From: Hymenobacter chitinivorans DSM 11115
GTDB lineage: Bacteria > Bacteroidota > Bacteroidia > Cytophagales > Hymenobacteraceae
Length of the DNA: 64,000 nucleotides
Reading direction: 5' to 3'
Assembly (NCBI RefSeq): GCF_002797555.1
Contig: NZ_PGFA01000001.1
Span: forward strand, 992,001-1,056,000
A model generated the notes under the pieces. It did no database searches, had not been told where the DNA came from, and saw nothing but the letters and a program-made list of their open reading frames with translations. This document shows positions 2,312-10,610 of this stretch, piece by piece. Positions within the stretch are counted from its first letter, which is position 1; the number at the start of each line of letters is the position of its first letter. The position numbers and the translations under genes are program-made.

Positions 2312-2350
2312 AGTAAAAAGGCTTTGCTGTTGCAGCAAAGCCTTTTTACT
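2312..2350. terminator. Strong bidirectional-looking terminator
   Basis: An 18-bp perfect hairpin: AGTAAAAAGGCTTTGCTG at 2312-2329, loop TTG, and its complement at 2333-2350. A-rich and T-rich flanks suit termination of the minus-strand cargo operon before the integrase. The right arm reaches into the stop codon of the gene ending at 2349. Confidence 0.85.
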
Positions 2351-3092
2351 ATGTTTCTTTAAGTGCCTTAGGTTCACTACTTGTCTCCAGAATAGCTGTA
2401 CTGATATCTTCTTTTTCCTCCTCTACAGAAGTACCTATACTCTGCTTGTACATATCTTCCGGATAGTTAACCGGAGCAGGAGGAGGTACCTCTGATTTGG
2501 CTTGTTCTATAAGTGTCGGCAGTATCAGTTTAGCAACTTTTTTTCTAAGCTTCTGAAACTGCTTATCCTCATCGTTGTCCTTTCCTATCAAATGGTTGCC
2601 GCTCGGATCACAGACATGAAGTTCAAAATGCCAGTAATTGCAGACAGTAGGCTGATGCTTTATTGAGCAGGAGTAAGTAATGTCATCAATTTTAATCTCC
2701 TTGCCATTCAAATGCTTGATAGGAATACGCCAGTATCCTACACCTACTTCGTATTGATATTCAGATGCAGTTGGCATTCGACCAGCATCACCTGGCTTCC
2801 ACTCTTTATGAACTTCATCTGAGTTGCTAATTCCTTTGATTGGCCGCCATGCGATGTCTGACCCTTGAAACAATCCAAACAAGCTTACAGACATCCGTTT
2901 GGCGATGTGATCTGTTTGAGGCTTCGTCAAGATGTCAGCTGCGAGCTTTCCACTAGCGTCAACATGCGGGTGAACTGGCTCATTTACGTAGCGCAGTAAC
3001 CACTCATTCTCAAAAGTCTTTATGGTGCCGTCAGATAGATCTAGGTAATCTGTATCAGGCAAGATATAGCCTGGGTAAGAAGGAGATGACAT
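2349..3092 (-). CDS. Unknown protein, candidate toxin partner of a Panacea antitoxin
   Basis: A 247-residue protein that I do not recognise. It has no signal peptide or membrane segment. The middle (about 75-165) is rich in aromatic residues and Cys/His (YSCSIKHQPTVCNYWHFELHVC) and looks folded; residues 200-247 are a Pro/Glu-rich acidic tail, probably disordered. It starts 5 bp after the stop of the Panacea-domain gene, the order antitoxin then toxin that is common in panAT modules. PanT toxins are very diverse, so lack of a known domain is compatible. The toxin role is inferred from context only. Confidence 0.5.
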   Translation of the reverse strand: MSSPSYPGYILPDTDYLDLSDGTIKTFENEWLLRYVNEPVHPHVDASGKLAADILTKPQTDHIAKRMSVSLFGLFQGSDIAWRPIKGISNSDEVHKEWKPGDAGRMPTASEYQYEVGVGYWRIPIKHLNGKEIKIDDITYSCSIKHQPTVCNYWHFELHVCDPSGNHLIGKDNDEDKQFQKLRKKVAKLILPTLIEQAKSEVPPPAPVNYPEDMYKQSIGTSVEEEKEDISTAILETSSEPKALKET

Positions 3093-3097
3093 TGATA

Positions 3098-4012
3098 CTA
3101 TGCTACTAGTTCTGTAGGGACTAATTGGTAGTAGATTGTTTCATTCGTTTGATGAAAAGCACAACTCACATTCCATTGCTCTTCTCCATTCAAAAACATA
3201 GCAAGGAAAGTATCATCCTCAGGGTCTGAGTCTTCACCAAATGTTACACTAGCGTGTAAGCTACGCCCACCAGCAATCTCTGCACGCACATACAGGTCAT
3301 GGTCATATGTGAGGCTTACAATGAACATACTAGGCTTTAATGACTGCATTGTCATCATCAAGTGCTGAGCGCGTTGCATTACTTCTTCTTTGGAGATACC
3401 AGTGAAGTACTCAGCTTTATTTTCCCATTGCTGTTGAAGTTCGGCAAGGGGTGATTCAAGGGCAAAATCGGAGGCAGACACGTCTTGAGAAGCGAAAGGG
3501 TTCAGCGGCTGGTGTTGATGAATACTACTTGAATAGTAGGTCTTCATGGTCTCTTTAGAAAGTTCTTTCGAACTGGGTTCAACAGAATCTAACCCAGCGC
3601 GTGCCTCAAGCCAAGGCTTTTCGCAATGAGTCTGGCGTACAAGCCATTCGGCCGTTTTTGGCACATACTCGTGAAGGACTGCTTCTAGTACTTGTTCCTG
3701 GTCACGCAACGCACTGATAGTAAACTCAGTTTGTGGGAAAGCCAATAATGCAGCAGTATTGACTGTTGCATTTGCATGCACAATTGGTGTTGCTTTGAGT
3801 TGGCAAAAACGGGTATATACTGCTGGATATACCGGTCCACGTACCCACGCCTGGGGAACATCATCAAAAAGATCATCGCCTGAGAATGCAAGGCTCCATG
3901 CCTGCAGATAGTACAAGACTTTCTGGAGCTTTAGCGGGGTTAGTTCAATGCCATTTTTTTTAGCATGTTCTATTACTAACTCAACGTAAGTGTGGATGTT
4001 GCGTTCGTACAT
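3098..4012 (-). CDS. Panacea (DUF4065 / SocA-like) domain antitoxin candidate
   Basis: A 304-residue protein. Residues 1-130 fit the Panacea domain: the helix TPLKLQKVLYYLQAW (25-39), then LFDDVPQAWVRGPVYPAVYTRF (48-69), whose GPVYP is the family hallmark. Panacea domains are known as hyper-promiscuous antitoxins that neutralise unrelated toxins by contact. The remaining 170 residues form a second, unrecognised part, long for a panA product. A TACCTTTG -7 box lies upstream and the next gene follows after 5 bp. The domain call is good; the antitoxin role is inferred. Confidence 0.7.
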   Translation of the reverse strand: MYERNIHTYVELVIEHAKKNGIELTPLKLQKVLYYLQAWSLAFSGDDLFDDVPQAWVRGPVYPAVYTRFCQLKATPIVHANATVNTAALLAFPQTEFTISALRDQEQVLEAVLHEYVPKTAEWLVRQTHCEKPWLEARAGLDSVEPSSKELSKETMKTYYSSSIHQHQPLNPFASQDVSASDFALESPLAELQQQWENKAEYFTGISKEEVMQRAQHLMMTMQSLKPSMFIVSLTYDHDLYVRAEIAGGRSLHASVTFGEDSDPEDDTFLAMFLNGEEQWNVSCAFHQTNETIYYQLVPTELVA

Positions 4013-4252: not shown

Positions 4253-4861
4253 CTAGTAAACCAACCCCTCTGCTTCATACAGCTCCTGCATAGTAGCGCG
4301 GTATTTCTCACAACCTCCACATTCTCCACAGGCAAGATTTGACTTCTGGCAGGAATGGGCGTAGCAGAGCAGAGAGCGGGTGATACCCGAAATTCTTACT
4401 AATTCAGCCGTAGTTAAAGAAATGGCTGGGGCCGTAATCTGTAGACCACCCTCCTGAAACGATACTAACTGGTTCATTAAACTAACGAAGTGCTCATGTC
4501 CATCCTTGTGAGAGGATTGATCAGTGGCCACTGTGCCAATCATAAGCTCAGTTACCTGCAAACGGCTGAGGTGCATGGCTGCTAAAGTGAGCAGCAGTTG
4601 GTTTCGGTATGGCCACCACTCAGCAGTGGGAGCATTTGAAAGCGAGGTAGTGCCTGCTAGGTCACCGCTGCCAAGTGCACGGCAATTAACCTGAACAATT
4701 TCGTGCTGGATGCCGAGAGCTGCCGCTACAGCTTTGGAAGCATCAATCTCTGCTTGCGCTGGCAACTGGCCATAATCAAGTGTGACGGCAATTGCTGGCC
4801 TTTTCCAATACGCAATGGCAATAGAATCCATGCCACCCGAGAGCAATAGGGCTGATTTCAT
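4253..4861 (-). CDS. QueC-like ATP-dependent enzyme (7-cyano-7-deazaguanine synthase family)
   Basis: A 202-residue protein with the PP-loop SGGMDS (8-13) that binds ATP and a C-terminal zinc site formed by C171, C178, C181 and C184 (CQKSNLACGECGGC). Both are hallmarks of QueC, which makes preQ0 from carboxy-deazaguanine. There are no queD, queE or queF genes nearby, so this is unlikely to be a housekeeping copy. QueC-like proteins are known parts of the Qat and type IV CBASS defence systems, where other partners occur. It is last in a minus-strand cluster with a Gly-rich protein, a PfkB-NDT fusion and a small domain protein. Substrate unknown. Confidence 0.8.
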   Translation of the reverse strand: MKSALLLSGGMDSIAIAYWKRPAIAVTLDYGQLPAQAEIDASKAVAAALGIQHEIVQVNCRALGSGDLAGTTSLSNAPTAEWWPYRNQLLLTLAAMHLSRLQVTELMIGTVATDQSSHKDGHEHFVSLMNQLVSFQEGGLQITAPAISLTTAELVRISGITRSLLCYAHSCQKSNLACGECGGCEKYRATMQELYEAEGLVY

Positions 4862-4898
4862 ATCAAGAAAATGCTAGAATAGAAACTAGGCTGAATAA

Positions 4899-5501
4899 CT
4901 AGGCAGCGCTCTGAACGCGCACTTCGCACGCGCCACCATCAACAGAAATGACAACTGCGATGAACCTGTATCCTTGCTTTATGCACTGGACTAGACGGGC
5001 AGGTTTACGGGAGATGACACCACAGATTTGGCCGCGGTCGTTCTCGACGATAGGCTGTGTGCCATTGGACTTCACAGTCAAAATATCTCTAGGACTAACA
5101 CTACTTAGTGCTGCTGTATTAGGATTGGCTAATGTTGTTCGGAAACTGATTTGGTCGCAGGGCTCCTCTAAGGTGTCGCCACCTTCGCCACCGCCACCTA
5201 TGCCACTACCCCCACCTGCGCCACCGCCGCCTACTCCACCACCCCCACCTTCGCCGGGTATAGCGCCGCCGCCGGATGTAGCACCGCCACCACCGCTGAA
5301 TCCACCGCCGCCACCGCCACCATTGGTAGGTAACTTCGTATCATTTACTGAAGTAGCGTTACCAGAAGCCGTGCCGCCAACTACAGCGTTACTGCTGCTA
5401 CCAGTATCTTGACCTGGAGCAGACCCACTGCTGGAAGTGCTGGGCTTGTTGTTACTTGATTTATTAGTGCCTTGTAATTTTCCACGATCACCGTTACTCA
5501 T
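4899..5501 (-). CDS. Gly-rich protein with a C-terminal domain shared with the 7057-7386 gene
   Basis: A 200-residue protein in two parts. Residues 1-112 are Ser/Asn/Gly low complexity, with nearly pure glycine around 60-110. Residues 115-200 form a compact domain that aligns with the 109-residue protein encoded at 7057-7386: both have F..TTLA.PN near the start, D.G.ICG.I, then AR(L/I)..C.K.G..F and G..C.V..Q.A. The pattern faintly resembles a HIRAN-type DNA-end-binding fold, but that is a weak guess. Its partners are the QueC-like gene 37 bp downstream and the PfkB-NDT gene upstream. The Gly tract could be a flexible linker or the target of modification. Confidence 0.7.
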   Translation of the reverse strand: MSNGDRGKLQGTNKSSNNKPSTSSSGSAPGQDTGSSSNAVVGGTASGNATSVNDTKLPTNGGGGGGGFSGGGGATSGGGAIPGEGGGGGVGGGGAGGGSGIGGGGEGGDTLEEPCDQISFRTTLANPNTAALSSVSPRDILTVKSNGTQPIVENDRGQICGVISRKPARLVQCIKQGYRFIAVVISVDGGACEVRVQSAA

Positions 5502-5534
5502 TGTATTCTTATAATGTTGGAGTGAGAAATAATT

Positions 5535-5789
5535 CTATTTCAGAAAGGCTACAGTCGTGCCTTCGTCTGATTCGTTACTGGACAGTGCCTGGCGCATATC
5601 CCGTTTCATGCGGGTTAGAAAATCATGCACCCAATGCCGGCCGGTTGTGTTGCGCCAGCGGCCGAACCAGCTTTCGGTACCTTCATCTAAATAAATCAGG
5701 ACAGCGCCGTCGCATTGGAATCGTTTCACAAATTCCTTAAGTACTTCTTCGTCGGTAAGGTCTCGTGCGGAGAGGAGTTGCTTCGCCAT
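5535..5789 (-). CDS. Small hypothetical protein in the QueC-like cluster
   Basis: An 84-residue protein I do not recognise. The N-terminal half is helical and charged (LTDEEVLKEFVKRF), followed by CDGAVLIYLDEG and an aromatic, basic stretch (WFGRWRNTTGRHWVHDF). There is no signal or membrane segment. It lies between the PfkB-NDT fusion (78 bp upstream) and the Gly-rich gene (33 bp downstream) on the same strand, so it is probably co-transcribed. It could be a small adaptor or inhibitor; nothing in the sequence decides. Confidence 0.55.
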   Translation of the reverse strand: MAKQLLSARDLTDEEVLKEFVKRFQCDGAVLIYLDEGTESWFGRWRNTTGRHWVHDFLTRMKRDMRQALSSNESDEGTTVAFLK

Positions 5790-5867
5790 TTGGGTTTAGA
5801 ATTATGTCACAAAATACACAATAAGTCCAAGTACGGGCGATATTCCTGTGCAGTCAAAAAATATTCT

Positions 5868-7052
5868 TTACCACGACGCTTTATAGATGGCTGTGGTGAG
5901 GTCACTGGTGATTTCACAGTGTGTGCCGAGGAACATAGTTAGGTCGTGGGGGCGGGAGTTGATGCTATACACTACCACCTTTTTGCCGAGGGCTTTTGCG
6001 TATCCAATTTCGAACACGGTGCCTGGATCGAAGCCTTCCAACAGGGCAAACACAGTGTCGCACCACTCGATAGCAGCTATATCCTGAGGTACTACCTGAT
6101 CAGCTGGGCCTAGGCCAATATCGTGATAGGGTGAGAAGACATTATTGCCAAACTCCAATAGCTTTGTCCGGCACTCATTGACCATCCAGCGTTCTGCAGG
6201 ATTGAAGAATGGAGCTGCCAGGTAAATTTTCTTGGGCTTAGCGCTAGGTTGTATAGCGGGAAATGTTTCGTCGGGCTCAGCGGGGAGGGGCAGGTACTTA
6301 AATTGGCAATACTGTGCCGTGAGCCGGGATGCTAACAGAGCTGCTTCGGCGGCTGGGCGTTGTTCGTGCAGCCACTGCCAGGCAAATACAGCAGAGAAAA
6401 TATCACCGGAACCGATGGAGAAAACAGTGCGGGTGGCAAATACCGGCACCCGGTACACGCCCGAGGACTCAATAACCAAGGCCCCATACGCACCATTCTT
6501 GATGACTACAACATCTGCGCCTTCACTGAGGAGCAGGTTGCGACCCACTGCCTCCAAGTCCTCGGCATCGGGCTGACCAAATAGATGCCGGGCTTCGCGG
6601 CTGTTGAGCACCAGCGCCAGCTGCTCGGCAGTAGAGCCAGTGCTGCGGAAAGAAAGGGGCGCGCCTGATTGAGGGTCATATACCACCCGTTTGCCATGTA
6701 CGATAGCAGATGCCTCGATAAGATCGAAGAGCAGGATGTTATCGGCCACAACTTCTGGTAGCTGAATGCGACTTTGTTCAAATTCATTGAATGAGTAGCT
6801 AGAAAGAGACAGTGGATAGGAGTATTCGAACGTGACTGTCTCCTCGATAGGAGTAACCGTTAAGGGTACATTATACATGGAGCATATCAACTCCAAGTCA
6901 GCCGCATCCTCAAGACCTACACATGTGGTAAATTGAAGCTCTGGAATATGTTTAGAAAGAGCTACTACAGCTCGTAGCCCAGAGCCGTATAACTCATTCC
7001 AATGAGGCTCTTGACAAACTTCACGATAGGTTCCTCCTACAATTGCTAACAT
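5868..7052 (-). CDS. Fusion of PfkB-family kinase and nucleoside 2-deoxyribosyltransferase
   Basis: A 394-residue two-domain protein. Residues 1-260 are a PfkB/ribokinase fold with the catalytic motif GSGD (214-217; D217 the expected base), although the N-terminal substrate lid is short. Residues 274-394 are a nucleoside 2-deoxyribosyltransferase domain: YLAAPFF near 277, and DPGTVFEIGYA (342-351), where E348 is the likely nucleophile. NDT enzymes swap or hydrolyse bases on deoxynucleosides; PfkB kinases phosphorylate sugars or nucleosides. Joined, they could process a nucleoside made or used by the QueC-like neighbour. The gene starts 4 bp after the stop of the 109-residue gene. Confidence 0.8.
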   Translation of the reverse strand: MLAIVGGTYREVCQEPHWNELYGSGLRAVVALSKHIPELQFTTCVGLEDAADLELICSMYNVPLTVTPIEETVTFEYSYPLSLSSYSFNEFEQSRIQLPEVVADNILLFDLIEASAIVHGKRVVYDPQSGAPLSFRSTGSTAEQLALVLNSREARHLFGQPDAEDLEAVGRNLLLSEGADVVVIKNGAYGALVIESSGVYRVPVFATRTVFSIGSGDIFSAVFAWQWLHEQRPAAEAALLASRLTAQYCQFKYLPLPAEPDETFPAIQPSAKPKKIYLAAPFFNPAERWMVNECRTKLLEFGNNVFSPYHDIGLGPADQVVPQDIAAIEWCDTVFALLEGFDPGTVFEIGYAKALGKKVVVYSINSRPHDLTMFLGTHCEITSDLTTAIYKASW

Positions 7053-7056
7053 TTAT

Positions 7057-7386
7057 TTATGCCGAAGCGTTTTGGATTAATACTTGACATTCAGCGCCGT
7101 TGATTTTAATGATTTTTGCCTCAAAATTTATTCCTTTTTTGAGGCATAATATAATGCGCGCCATGTTACTCATAATGGTGCCGCATATATCACCATTATC
7201 TGTAACGGCTATAACCATATTTAATGGCTCTGGAAATCTTACTTGTAATGTTTCTCCAGGCTTTAGTGTTGGTATTGTCATTATATTAGGCGATGCTAGG
7301 GTTGTTATGAAACTAAAGCTGCAGCTGTCAGATGCAGCTGTTACTGGTATTTGTGAGAGCTTAAAAAAAGGTGGGATGCCAGCCAT
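7057..7386 (-). CDS. Small protein made of the domain shared with the Gly-rich protein
   Basis: A 109-residue protein with no low-complexity part. Residues 23-109 align with the C-terminal domain of the 4899-5501 product (TTLASPN, DNGDICGTI, ARIILCLKKG, ECQVLIQNASA). Two conserved cysteines occur in both paralogues. Having the same domain twice in one cluster, once bare and once on a Gly-rich tether, suggests the pair works together or that one is sensor and the other decoy or substrate. Spacing is 12 bp from the CBS-HEPN gene and 4 bp to the PfkB-NDT gene, so one operon is likely. HIRAN-like at best. Confidence 0.65.
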   Translation of the reverse strand: MAGIPPFFKLSQIPVTAASDSCSFSFITTLASPNIMTIPTLKPGETLQVRFPEPLNMVIAVTDNGDICGTIMSNMARIILCLKKGINFEAKIIKINGAECQVLIQNASA

Positions 7387-7398
7387 TGTCGTATTTGC

Positions 7399-8880
7399 CT
7401 AGAGGGGGTTGTTCAAGTAGTAAGAAACAAGCGAAGATTGAGCACCCACTTGGTTTATAGTTGCAAGAAGCCGTTCTTCAGTAATGCCTAGCTTCTGAGC
7501 CCAAACGTTGACTTGTTCTGTATCTCCCTTGTTGATTATATATGACCAACGATAAAAGGAAATTTTCTGTCTGGTCAAACTCACACTCCTTACAGCCCAA
7601 CCCGCTAACAACCACTGACGAGACTGAGCAGAATAATCGGTCCACCATCCCGTATGCTCTCTCGCTGCTTTTGGCAAAGGCTGTCTGATTATTTCTTCTA
7701 TAAAATCAATGTCTGTTTCGAAAATTGCTGTCGAGTCTTTTAATTCATTTAATAAAAAATTCACAAAAGGCTGATATTTATTTTCAATCGATATCTCAAC
7801 CTCCTTCTCTATTCTACTAAAAGAATTGGTCCAAATTTTAGCAAGAATTTCTTTGGGTAATTTATATTCAATACTACCTTGATCTTCGAAACTTGTTTCA
7901 TTGTCTGTCGGTAGATTATTTATATTTCTATTGATATTGAGATCTGCATTTTCGCTATCTGCTACAGATTGAGTGTCTGCATTAATTGCTTCGTCTTTTC
8001 CCTTGTTTTGTAAAGGCTGGTGAGATTTATACCAATCTGCGCAGAATCGGACTTTGTATCTCTCTTCTGAAGAGAAGTTATTTCTAAAATGAGAGAAATC
8101 ATTTCGAATCTCACGAACATCGTTCATCATTTTTATCCAACCATCCTTAGATGTTCTAAATACAGGAGATAGTATTTTCCACGTATCCTTATTTTGTATT
8201 AGTTGTATAAACTCTGACAGAGTAAGTTTGTCTAAATGTATTGACTTGCCCCGTGCGGGGAAGGACACGTCAAGTCTTTTCTCAACATCGTCATTTGTCA
8301 ATTCTAGTGTTTTATCTGTGACAAGCTGATTTATCAATGTTTTTGCTCTAATGCGTAGGCCTCCTGCATTGTTGTTAAGATTATCAATGGCTTGCTGCAG
8401 TTCTGCAGATTGAGGTTCTATATCCGAGTTATATGCAAATCGAATATGGTCCTTCATACTCTTTTCAATCTCTCCCAATAGAATATTGTATTCTGCCCTC
8501 TCTTGTAAGTAGCGTGTTATATCGTGATGAGTAATTAGTCCAAATAGCTTCTTTGATTTATCTACTATGAGTACTGCTTCCGATGCACTGTTTAAGAAGT
8601 CGTCCAAAAGTTCCATCAGGTCCTCGTCAACTTCTATTGTCCTTGGTTTAACAACGGCGTCATTGACTGTTAATTCAGTAGGTGCAACGTTGAAATTTAT
8701 TAATGCATGAGTGATTGATTCTGTGGTTACTATGCCAAGCAATATGTTGTCGGAATCTACAATAGGTAGCTGGCTGAAGTGATTTTCAACCATAAGGTTA
8801 AAGGCATCACTTAGCTTAGTGTCTAATGAAGTAACTTCAAGTTGGTTCTTTTGTATTAAGTACCCAGCTAGAATAGGCAT
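7399..8880 (-). CDS. CBS-domain protein with a HEPN-like (Swt1-type) domain
   Basis: A 493-residue protein. Residues 1-130 are two CBS motifs (FSQLPIVDSDNILLGIVT and ASEAVLIVDKSKKLFGLIT), a module that usually binds adenine nucleotides. Residues about 210-290 resemble the HEPN domain of Swt1-type proteins: LTLSEFIQLIQN...W then REIRNDFSHF, giving the RX4H ribonuclease motif R259/H264. A polar linker (290-340) leads to a C-terminal region (345-493) I cannot name. HEPN domains of this kind are common RNA-cleaving effectors in toxin-antitoxin and phage-defence systems. A nucleotide-gated RNase is a reasonable inference. It lies 78 bp behind the DUF4062 gene. Confidence 0.72.
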   Translation of the reverse strand: MPILAGYLIQKNQLEVTSLDTKLSDAFNLMVENHFSQLPIVDSDNILLGIVTTESITHALINFNVAPTELTVNDAVVKPRTIEVDEDLMELLDDFLNSASEAVLIVDKSKKLFGLITHHDITRYLQERAEYNILLGEIEKSMKDHIRFAYNSDIEPQSAELQQAIDNLNNNAGGLRIRAKTLINQLVTDKTLELTNDDVEKRLDVSFPARGKSIHLDKLTLSEFIQLIQNKDTWKILSPVFRTSKDGWIKMMNDVREIRNDFSHFRNNFSSEERYKVRFCADWYKSHQPLQNKGKDEAINADTQSVADSENADLNINRNINNLPTDNETSFEDQGSIEYKLPKEILAKIWTNSFSRIEKEVEISIENKYQPFVNFLLNELKDSTAIFETDIDFIEEIIRQPLPKAAREHTGWWTDYSAQSRQWLLAGWAVRSVSLTRQKISFYRWSYIINKGDTEQVNVWAQKLGITEERLLATINQVGAQSSLVSYYLNNPL

Positions 8881-8958: not shown

Positions 8959-9924
8959 TTAGTAAGGATGCTCTATTCTTAGTATCAAGTCTTTGCCTTT
9001 GTCTGTTAGTATTAATGCTGCACTCTGTGAATCGTTGTTGTGAACCTGCTCAACTAATAGTAGGACGGTAAGTCGGTCTGCAAAATCCTTACATACACTA
9101 GAGTTTTTCTTTGAAACATTCTTATCGGGTTGATGATTTATCTCAAACATTTCCCTTTTAGTTAAAAGTGCAAAAATATCCATATAAAGCATATGGATAT
9201 AGGTGCCAGAGACTAGAATCCTCCTTATATCATGAAATAGTGACAAGTATGTTCCAGTGTACTTCTGGTCAAAGAAGTTGAACTCATATGGAATACCTTC
9301 TAATATATTATAAGCCTGCTGGACTTTGTCATTAGCTGGGTTGCTGGCAGCTACTAGAAGTTTCAACTCATTATTCTCTTTACTAAGGCGTGAAATTTCT
9401 TCGGCGACTAATGGGCTTGTAGTTGCCTCATTAGCGCGTATCCAGCCAATTCTAGGCTTGTTCGTAGTCAGCGTTGAGAGTGAAAGCGCCGCCTGTAAAA
9501 CGAGGTTGTCCGTGGATGTCCAGAAGTTGACAAGTCTATTTTTAAATCTGCCTTTGAAAGTATTAAGCTTCGTTTTTTTCTTGCCAGAATCGACATAGTC
9601 GTTATTCCAGTTTTTTACGGAGCCATCTAGTATGAAAGCAAGGCAAGGAATGCCTTGCTCTAAGGCATAATTATACTCCTTCTCGGTAAAGCCTACTCCA
9701 TCAGCATCTTCTGAGCCATAGCGGTGTGCGATGATGAGCAAGTAGTAATCAGAGTTATCGATATGGCGCTTTATGGTTTCCCATTGGCTTTCATCAGCGG
9801 CATCGAACATTTCCATGCCTACAGGTAAGTGGCCCATCCGCAAAACGGTCTTCACGATCTGGTTTCGTTCTTCCTTAAGGTCAATGTATGTTGAGCTGAT
9901 GAATATTTGGTACTTCTTATCCAT
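8959..9924 (-). CDS. DUF4062-domain protein
   Basis: A 321-residue protein starting MDKKYQIFISSTYIDLKEER; this internal ATG is preferred over the one 66 bp upstream because DUF4062 normally begins right at the start. The motifs ISSTYIDLKEER, MGMEMFDAADESQW (reads VGMEMF) and YLLIIAHRYGS cover residues 1-95. The domain is often found at the N-terminus of STAND-type defence ATPases and is thought to be a TIR/SLOG-like Rossmann fold. No NTPase is fused here; residues 110-321 are unrecognised, with a possible short coiled coil near 175-200. It is the first gene of the minus-strand cargo block. Confidence 0.72.
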   Translation of the reverse strand: MDKKYQIFISSTYIDLKEERNQIVKTVLRMGHLPVGMEMFDAADESQWETIKRHIDNSDYYLLIIAHRYGSEDADGVGFTEKEYNYALEQGIPCLAFILDGSVKNWNNDYVDSGKKKTKLNTFKGRFKNRLVNFWTSTDNLVLQAALSLSTLTTNKPRIGWIRANEATTSPLVAEEISRLSKENNELKLLVAASNPANDKVQQAYNILEGIPYEFNFFDQKYTGTYLSLFHDIRRILVSGTYIHMLYMDIFALLTKREMFEINHQPDKNVSKKNSSVCKDFADRLTVLLLVEQVHNNDSQSAALILTDKGKDLILRIEHPY

Positions 9925-10160
9925 AGATTCTTCTGTGCCTAGTTGAGTATGGTATTTCGTGGTAGTGAAGGCCGTGTCGCTTTCTAGCACGATGAAAACC
10001 GCACGGGTGTAGACAGTCGGCGCTTGGCAATGTGCTGGACTGATACTGTACTGTACAAATACCGTTGAGCTAAGTAATGCATAAAAAAGAGGAAATCATT
10101 ATATAAACACGAAATAGTAAGGTATTCTAATAACGGGAAGAACTTCCAATATTGGGATGT

Positions 10161-10610
10161 CTAATTCAGCCGGTCATAGCCGCCCCCCGCAACCCCAGCA
10201 TCTGGGGACTCTGGCTTGCGGAGCAGGAGGTCTTTGAATAGGAGGAAGGCAGTGGCGAACAGAGTGCTAAGGGCGAATAGGCGCCGGGCTATACTCCAAA
10301 GGTTTTGCTGGAGAATCAGTGGTAGCTCGCGCATAAACACAAAGAGTACCCAGGCAAAGTAGATGGAATAGAGGATTTTAGCCCACGTTTTCCCGGAGCG
10401 AATGCCCAAGCCGAGCCAAATGAAAGCGGCGATAAAAAGAGCAGATATGAGGACCATTACGCAGAAAATGCCATAGTCTATGCTTTTCTCTGCCGTAAAG
10501 GCGCCTAGCAATTTGGAGATTGTATAGAGAGTTGGTAGGAGGTAGAATGCTGTAGAAGCCAAGAATAGATTCGACGCCCAAACGTAATCCTTGCGAGTAG
10601 CTGGCTGCAT
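10161..10610 (-). CDS. Four-helix membrane protein coupled to the prophage repressor (copy D)
   Basis: A 149-residue protein with four predicted hydrophobic segments and a soluble Pro/Gly tail ending GGYDRLN. It is a paralogue of copies A-C at 1-617. Its ATG overlaps the TGA of the repressor gene (TGATG at 10612-10608), so it is probably made together with the repressor in the lysogen. Lysogen-expressed membrane proteins next to a repressor often exclude superinfecting phage, which is my best guess. The family itself is unknown to me. Confidence 0.7.
   Translation of the reverse strand: MQPATRKDYVWASNLFLASTAFYLLPTLYTISKLLGAFTAEKSIDYGIFCVMVLISALFIAAFIWLGLGIRSGKTWAKILYSIYFAWVLFVFMRELPLILQQNLWSIARRLFALSTLFATAFLLFKDLLLRKPESPDAGVAGGGYDRLN

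Follow-up and report, generated by a model that had tools for sequence, protein, structure and literature searches.

A widespread operon of a small tailed protein, a PfkB-NDT fusion and a QueC-like or PurA-like enzyme: a likely further family of nucleobase-protein conjugation phage defences

The window analysed here, a stretch of 64,000 nucleotides from Hymenobacter chitinivorans DSM 11115 (contig NZ_PGFA01000001.1, positions 992,001 to 1,056,000), carries a set of five genes on the minus strand at 4253-7386. The set belongs to a widespread operon that consists of a small tailed protein, a fusion of a PfkB-type kinase and a deoxyribosyltransferase (NDT), a QueC-like or PurA-like enzyme and, often, an OGG-type glycosylase. 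The operon is likely a further family of phage defences based on nucleobase-protein conjugation. By analogy with known systems, the probability that its enzymes attach a purine-type base to the N-terminus of the tailed protein, and that the product is used in anti-phage defence, was estimated to be about 50%. This reading is predicted from the gene order, fixed across 87 loci whose hosts are distant from each other, the tail motif, the kept QueC sites, the loop lost from the PurA-like enzymes, the predicted HIRAN fold of the small protein, the TIR and Cap10-like parts of one branch, and the mobile and defence context. Protein modification by a nucleobase, one of the pathways considered in the initial annotation of the window, fits best.

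The recurrence of the set was determined with an alignment of 35 fusion proteins as the query. In public genomes 306 relatives were found, and the 80 best loci among them were retained; among viral contigs 21 loci matched, eight of them with a full-length fusion, which brought the fetched loci (labelled L) to 88. L050, in which the fusion runs off the contig, was left out, resulting in 87 countable loci. A small protein of the shared family was encoded directly upstream of the fusion in 87/87 loci, frequently with a four-base overlap. The gene after the fusion was QueC-like in 77 loci and PurA-like in nine, while the contig of L014 ends there. With its order repeated in 87 loci, the gene set goes beyond chance. 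The main refutation named in the initial annotation, that no association of the QueC-like protein, the fusion and the small domain would recur in other genomes, failed for the same reason. The hosts include Bacteroidota, Pseudomonadota, Verrucomicrobia, Pyrinomonadaceae, Geobacter, Myxococcus and one haloarchaeon.

Within the fetched stretches, an OGG-type helix-hairpin-helix glycosylase was detected in 69 of the 77 QueC-type loci and a SagB-like dehydrogenase in 53, both family names having been tested on few members. The Lys and Asp of the glycosylase were kept in 69/69 aligned proteins (the split pieces of L041 were omitted). A dGTPase was located near eight loci. Among the other neighbours of at least 150 residues within 4 kb, clustering revealed no family in more than four loci. 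By eye, a nucleotidyltransferase-looking protein follows the dGTPase in L136 (18417-19247), L028 (13168-13905) and L116 (9620-10510); those of L136 and L028 had no Pfam match. On a Synechocystis plasmid (L142, 2471-5279), multiubiquitin and ThiF genes were found just upstream of the set.

Two small proteins are encoded in the window. Small protein 1 (7057..7386, minus strand, 109 residues) is the first gene of the set and starts with MAG. In small protein 2 (4899..5501, minus strand, 200 residues), a Gly/Ser-rich tail from MSNG, approximately residues 1-107 (window 5181-5501), precedes a second copy of the same domain. The early observation that one domain is present twice was confirmed by phmmer (E 5e-14; 34% identity in the alignment). 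Sequence searches with this domain in Pfam and the PDB gave chance-level matches only, while the fold search with the model of small protein 1 (pLDDT 84.8) matched HIRAN, and the shared domain is predicted to have the HIRAN fold. The HIRAN domain of human HLTF is a binder of DNA 3' ends. Compared with HIRAN of HLTF, Rad5 and Hachiman HamB, the domain stands alone with a tail here and shares 9-13% identity.

The M-[STGA]-G start was determined in 58/77 QueC-type small proteins by the first ATG and in 73/77 by a homology-guided start; the corresponding values of control open reading frames (ORFs) were 1/133 and 3/133. The conserved part of the tail was the extreme N-terminus, M-[ST]-G-[SG], and not the long Gly-rich stretch. 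The idea that the Gly-rich protein is a substrate or effector is thus kept in a changed form: the conserved N-terminus suggests a tailed substrate, whereas the long stretch is not what is conserved. Comparable tails, MGGS/MGTS, are given for the Cap9 substrate and QatB in the available part of PMC13279940.

The candidate ligase of the window is a QueC-like PP-loop protein of 202 residues (4253..4861, minus strand), which matched PF06508 with 97.8 bits. The PP-loop and four-Cys site ascribed to it at the outset were both found, and the residues of interest are S8-G-G-x-D-S13 (SGGMDS), Y30/Q32/E38, R86-N87, H118, D120, C171, C178, C181, C184 and K186. The family alignment comprised 75 of 78 proteins; one without the search motif, one split and one cut off were omitted. 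All 75 share the PP-loop, the R-N pair, four Cys residues and an Asp aligned to the base-reading Asp of QueC and Cap9. Assignment to the canonical QueC of the queuosine pathway was rejected, since the TIGR00364 score was 83.8 bits with a cut-off of 150.3, HKDG stands for YPDC, and the context differs.

The QueC-like/PfkB-NDT pair is already published. In the available text of PMC13329287 (2026), Cluster 4 is a PF06508 QueC paralogue with a PfkB-NDT neighbour in about 89% and is read as purine salvage. The type of PP-loop protein, the neighbour and the C-terminal Cys motif are the same here, and helix-turn-helix (HTH) genes lie near several of our loci too. The SGGxDS loop of Cluster 4 corresponds to S8-S13 in the window and was present in all 75 aligned proteins. 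In the window, Y30-G-Q32 is followed by E38 with five residues between (Glu in 75/75), compared with a spacing of six in the printed pattern YGQ(x)6E. The motif CH(x)5CxxCxGCxK was found, with its Cys, Gly and Lys kept and the His, present in 72/75, replaced by Gln in the window. The PF00294-PF05014 neighbour is present as well; in the window, the 84-residue protein and small protein 2 intervene. A tailed small protein or a HIRAN, glycosylase, SagB-like, PurA-like or TIR partner is not named in the available part of the Cluster 4 text. The term 'undescribed', applied initially, was therefore only partly right, the pair being in print; in the best reading, the new features are the HIRAN and TIR heads and the ligase swap. 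Purine or nucleoside salvage, as suggested for Cluster 4 in PMC13329287, agrees with the chemistry of the NDT and PfkB families elsewhere. Here salvage is very improbable: the set is patchy, being present in 6/120 genomes of the window's genus, it lies on plasmids and islands, it has a tailed HIRAN or TIR partner, and its QueC-like enzyme is swapped for a PurA-like one though the window host keeps its own PurA.

The PurA-like proteins kept GDEGKG and related GTP/IMP motifs in 9/9 cases, and the loop TTGRPRR was gone in 9/9; the replacing pattern N.xQG.F[RK] was found in 8/9, with a variant form in L008. TTGRPRR binds aspartate in ordinary PurA and is present in the host's own PurA. On the tree of 88 fusion proteins the nine PurA-type loci, which neighbour the window and L116, need one change, indicating a single ligase swap. 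With either ligase, a purine-like carbonyl or acid would be activated so that an amine can attack it, and the tail is the obvious candidate for this amine.

The same enzymes could instead serve DNA-base modification. The ligase would then make a free base, NDT and kinase would convert it to a deoxynucleotide, the dGTPase would supply deoxyguanosine, the glycosylase would police the base and HIRAN would be an accessory DNA binder. The PurA-like protein gave a weak match to PurZ (NF038379, 40.4 bits with a cut-off of 300), in Z-DNA phages dZMP is the product of an NDT-family enzyme according to the available part of PMC12884076, the dGTPase recurs as described above, and a methylase and a glycosylase lie beside the set in E. 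coli H6. The PurA-type branch and the PurZ/DmtZ dZTP pathway of these phages are alike in using PurA- and NDT-family enzymes on deoxynucleotides (PMC12884076, available part); they differ in the fusion of NDT to PfkB, the tailed protein and the PurZ score far under the cut-off. DNA-base modification is unlikely, because it leaves the conserved tail, the transfer of the tail to a TIR protein and the Cap10-like part unexplained, and no polymerase recurs among the clustered neighbours.

The last two features come from plasmids of Rhizobium, Agrobacterium and Neorhizobium (L139, L143, L144), which encode the fusion, a TIR protein, the glycosylase, QueC and a second TIR protein. Close by lie DUF4231 and one more TIR gene, and the set is Thoeris-like. 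The best PDB match of the C-terminal part of the first TIR protein of L139 was Cap10 (E 6e-8), followed by archaeosine transglycosylase (5e-6); the Pfam TGT score, 18.2 bits, was under the cut-off. No NDT was found by Pfam in the L139 fusion, and the other two fusions look alike by eye. From the Cap10-like match and the missing NDT, the transglycosylase-like part appears to stand where the NDT part lost its motif. The second TIR protein starts with MGGG in 3/3 loci, which points to a tail of the same kind on a TIR head. Being close relatives, the three loci count for about one event. Their QueC is nearer to canonical QueC and Cap9 and has 24-25% identity to the QueC-like protein of the window. 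The set has the look of a system that tags a TIR protein with a nucleobase.

The PfkB-NDT fusion of the window (5868..7052, minus strand, 394 residues) matched PF05014 with 67 bits at residues 276-371 (window 5940-6227) and PF00294 with 52.4 bits at residues 118-249 (window 6306-6701). The initial annotation had described a kinase-NDT fusion with intact motifs. Both families matched, and solved NDTs could be aligned to its IYLA.PFF and D.GT.FE stretches, but the PfkB match spans only profile positions 157-290 of 302, the C-terminal half. In L053, L061, L065, L066, L072, L081, L082 and L087, the QueC-like gene is followed downstream by a second HIRAN and PfkB-NDT pair; in 8/8 of these tandem loci the second fusion is without the NDT motif and has a separate HIRAN partner. 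Retron defence systems include NDT-like effectors, and the fusion might likewise be a toxin acting without conjugation. It would destroy nucleotides or NAD, HIRAN would sense DNA ends and restrain it, and a small signal would come from the QueC-like enzyme. The direct adjacency of small protein and fusion in the 87 loci and the private HIRAN partners of the tandem copies are in agreement with such a toxin. The tail motif and the exchange of QueC-like for PurA-like enzymes are left unexplained by it, making the toxin quite unlikely.

Under nucleobase-protein conjugation, the following steps may be proposed. After loss of the initial Met, the tail would start with Ser, Gly or Ala. The ligase would then activate the base and the tail amine would attack it, a step suggested for the QueC-like enzyme by analogy with Cap9 and for the PurA-like enzyme by the loss of the aspartate-binding loop. 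In the third and chemically weakest step, NDT would add deoxyribose to the bound base and PfkB would phosphorylate it, resulting in a protein-linked deoxynucleotide. Finally, HIRAN might bring the tag to DNA ends, with the glycosylase removing or sensing the base in DNA; in the Rhizobiaceae branch the tag would be on the TIR protein. More tentatively, and with somewhat lower probability than the conjugation itself, a general class of immune systems could be formulated in which a nucleobase or deoxynucleotide is loaded on the tail of an effector and the parts are exchangeable: the ligase (QueC-like or PurA-like), the base-exchange enzyme (NDT-kinase or Cap10-like transglycosylase) and the effector head (HIRAN or TIR). 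As part of this wider reading, the QueC-like enzyme of operons with SagB would use both ATP steps of QueC, the first for an amide with Ser2 and the second for ring closure to an oxazoline, which the SagB-like dehydrogenase would oxidise to an oxazole.

Several results weigh against conjugation. The base-stacking Tyr of QueC and Cap9 was His in 71/75 proteins. No Pfam HIRAN match was obtained at E up to 1 among 58 small-domain members. The tails of the window, MAG and MSNG, are atypical, as are several PurA-type tails (MSKR, MKDG). With homology-guided starts, Ser2 was found in 51/53 loci with SagB vs 12/22 without it (Fisher p 3.6e-5), and by the first ATG in 43/53 vs 8/22; on independent tree pairs the link was not significant (about three in the same direction, none opposite, median p 0.25), and it was rejected as proof of oxazole chemistry.

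The supply of the base is a further point of this kind. Hosts (31) were searched for QueE, with one model, and PTPS, and 29 of these also for canonical QueC. The hosts of L018, L066 and L072 were without canonical QueC, PTPS and a full QueE match, a generic radical-SAM stretch being the sole QueE match in one of them; in the hosts of L039 and L085, PTPS was present and a full QueE match was not found. The first three hosts show no clear 7-deazaguanine pathway. Given these misses, 7-carboxy-7-deazaguanine (CDG) is not assured as the base, and it was not upheld as the certain substrate. The same model missed a full QueE match in host genomes G133 and G139 despite canonical QueC there, and PTPS was not found in six hosts that have canonical QueC; the QueE and PTPS misses are therefore soft. 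The window host has a QueE-like match and two PTPS, and no canonical QueC was found in its genome. Outside the window, the host genome contains a 639-residue frame (L002) that has an SGGLDS PP-loop and matches QueC weakly.

We infer a defence role from genomic context and analogy. The suggested scoring of neighbourhoods for defence genes gave matches of 146 flanking ORFs to 326 PADLOC families, including AriA, PtuA, GajA, RmrA and SIR2 models, vs 19 families for 133 control ORFs of the window's genus, with mad3 alike in both sets; since the models are redundant and the control is unmatched by taxon, the excess is support and not a measure. The fusion is carried by 36 plasmid records, 18 of them conjugative, and by the eight viral contigs, yet the fusion of L089 had no match in an annotated phage collection. 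AAA15 with DUF4435 neighbours L021. Of 5,426 E. coli genomes, eight matched part of the query at the DNA level (23% of its length, about 65% identity), and in E. coli H6 (L136, 12481-19247) a full-looking copy with methylase, dGTPase and integrase adjoins tRNA-Sec.

In the window, the ORFs lie as first described, on one strand, in the 5' to 3' order small protein 1, PfkB-NDT fusion, 84-residue protein, small protein 2 and QueC-like protein. They are placed between a prophage integrase and an HTH repressor, and terminase, portal and tape-measure profiles also matched in the window, in agreement with prophage cargo. The 84-residue protein (5535..5789, minus strand) has no assigned role; Pfam gave no family, and structure prediction, successful for the small protein, resulted in a low-confidence model without a fold match. 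Its relatives precede the small protein in L116, in the contig-end locus L014 and in 8/9 PurA-type loci, L008 being the one in which none was detected. L116, the nearest relative with context examined, has the simpler order 84-residue protein, small protein (MSGGGSS), fusion, QueC-like protein and dGTPase. The window copy is thus a divergent, rearranged variant with two small proteins and without the glycosylase and SagB-like gene.

The neighbouring cargo contains further genes. A protein with two CBS domains, DUF7662 and DUF3606 (7399-8880) stops 12 bases ahead of small protein 1 and is possibly co-transcribed with the set; its score with NF053863 (CBS anti-phage protein), 102.9 bits, was under the cut-off of 260. 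Directly upstream of it, a DUF4062 protein (8959-9990, 104.6 bits) is a second candidate defence gene, the family being reported as anti-phage NADases of the Swarozyc type in the available part of PMC13174449. A SocA/Panacea protein (3098-4012) and then a 247-residue protein without an assigned role, together at 2349-4012, may be a toxin-antitoxin pair. Similar membrane-protein ORFs flank the cargo at 112-549, outside the integrase, and at 10161-10610, beside the repressor.

The operon was compared with the known QueC-based defences. The initial statement that the partners differ was borne out in the window, where no ATPase, TatD, CD-NTase or transglycosylase was found among nine proteins scanned with Pfam and PADLOC; the wider system adds the OGG-type glycosylase, SagB-like protein and dGTPase, includes TIR and a Cap10-like part in the Rhizobiaceae branch, and has a PurA-like protein in place of the QueC-like one in a sister branch. 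With type IV CBASS Cap9/Cap10 it shares a QueC-like enzyme and a partner with an N-terminal Gly-containing tail, as described in the available parts of PMC11996544 and PMC13279940, and in the Rhizobiaceae branch only, the Cap10-like part. It differs in the HIRAN and TIR heads, the additional PfkB-NDT and glycosylase and the His in place of the Cap9 pocket Tyr; membership was rejected, as CD-NTase and Cap10-like transglycosylase were not among the nine window proteins. The QueC-family enzyme and the conserved N-terminal tail of a partner are likewise shared with Qat. The enzyme has 202 residues here vs about 400 in QatC with its extensions, and the partner is unlike QatB; Qat membership was rejected, the KAP ATPase QatA and the TatD protein QatD being missing among the same nine proteins.

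In a literature search that covered part of the matching papers, no description of the HIRAN, PurA-like or TIR branches was found. Because a full-looking copy exists in E. coli genomes, the set lends itself to tests in laboratory strains against standard phages. If conjugation is correct, the orphan QueC Cluster 4 would obtain a testable role, and the product would be a protein-linked deoxynucleotide, of which none was met in the literature search. Nucleobase-protein conjugation has been demonstrated for type IV CBASS, and Qat is a proposed second case. If another family of far greater variety, in which both ligase and effector are exchanged, were added to these, conjugation would become a general strategy by which bacteria defend themselves.

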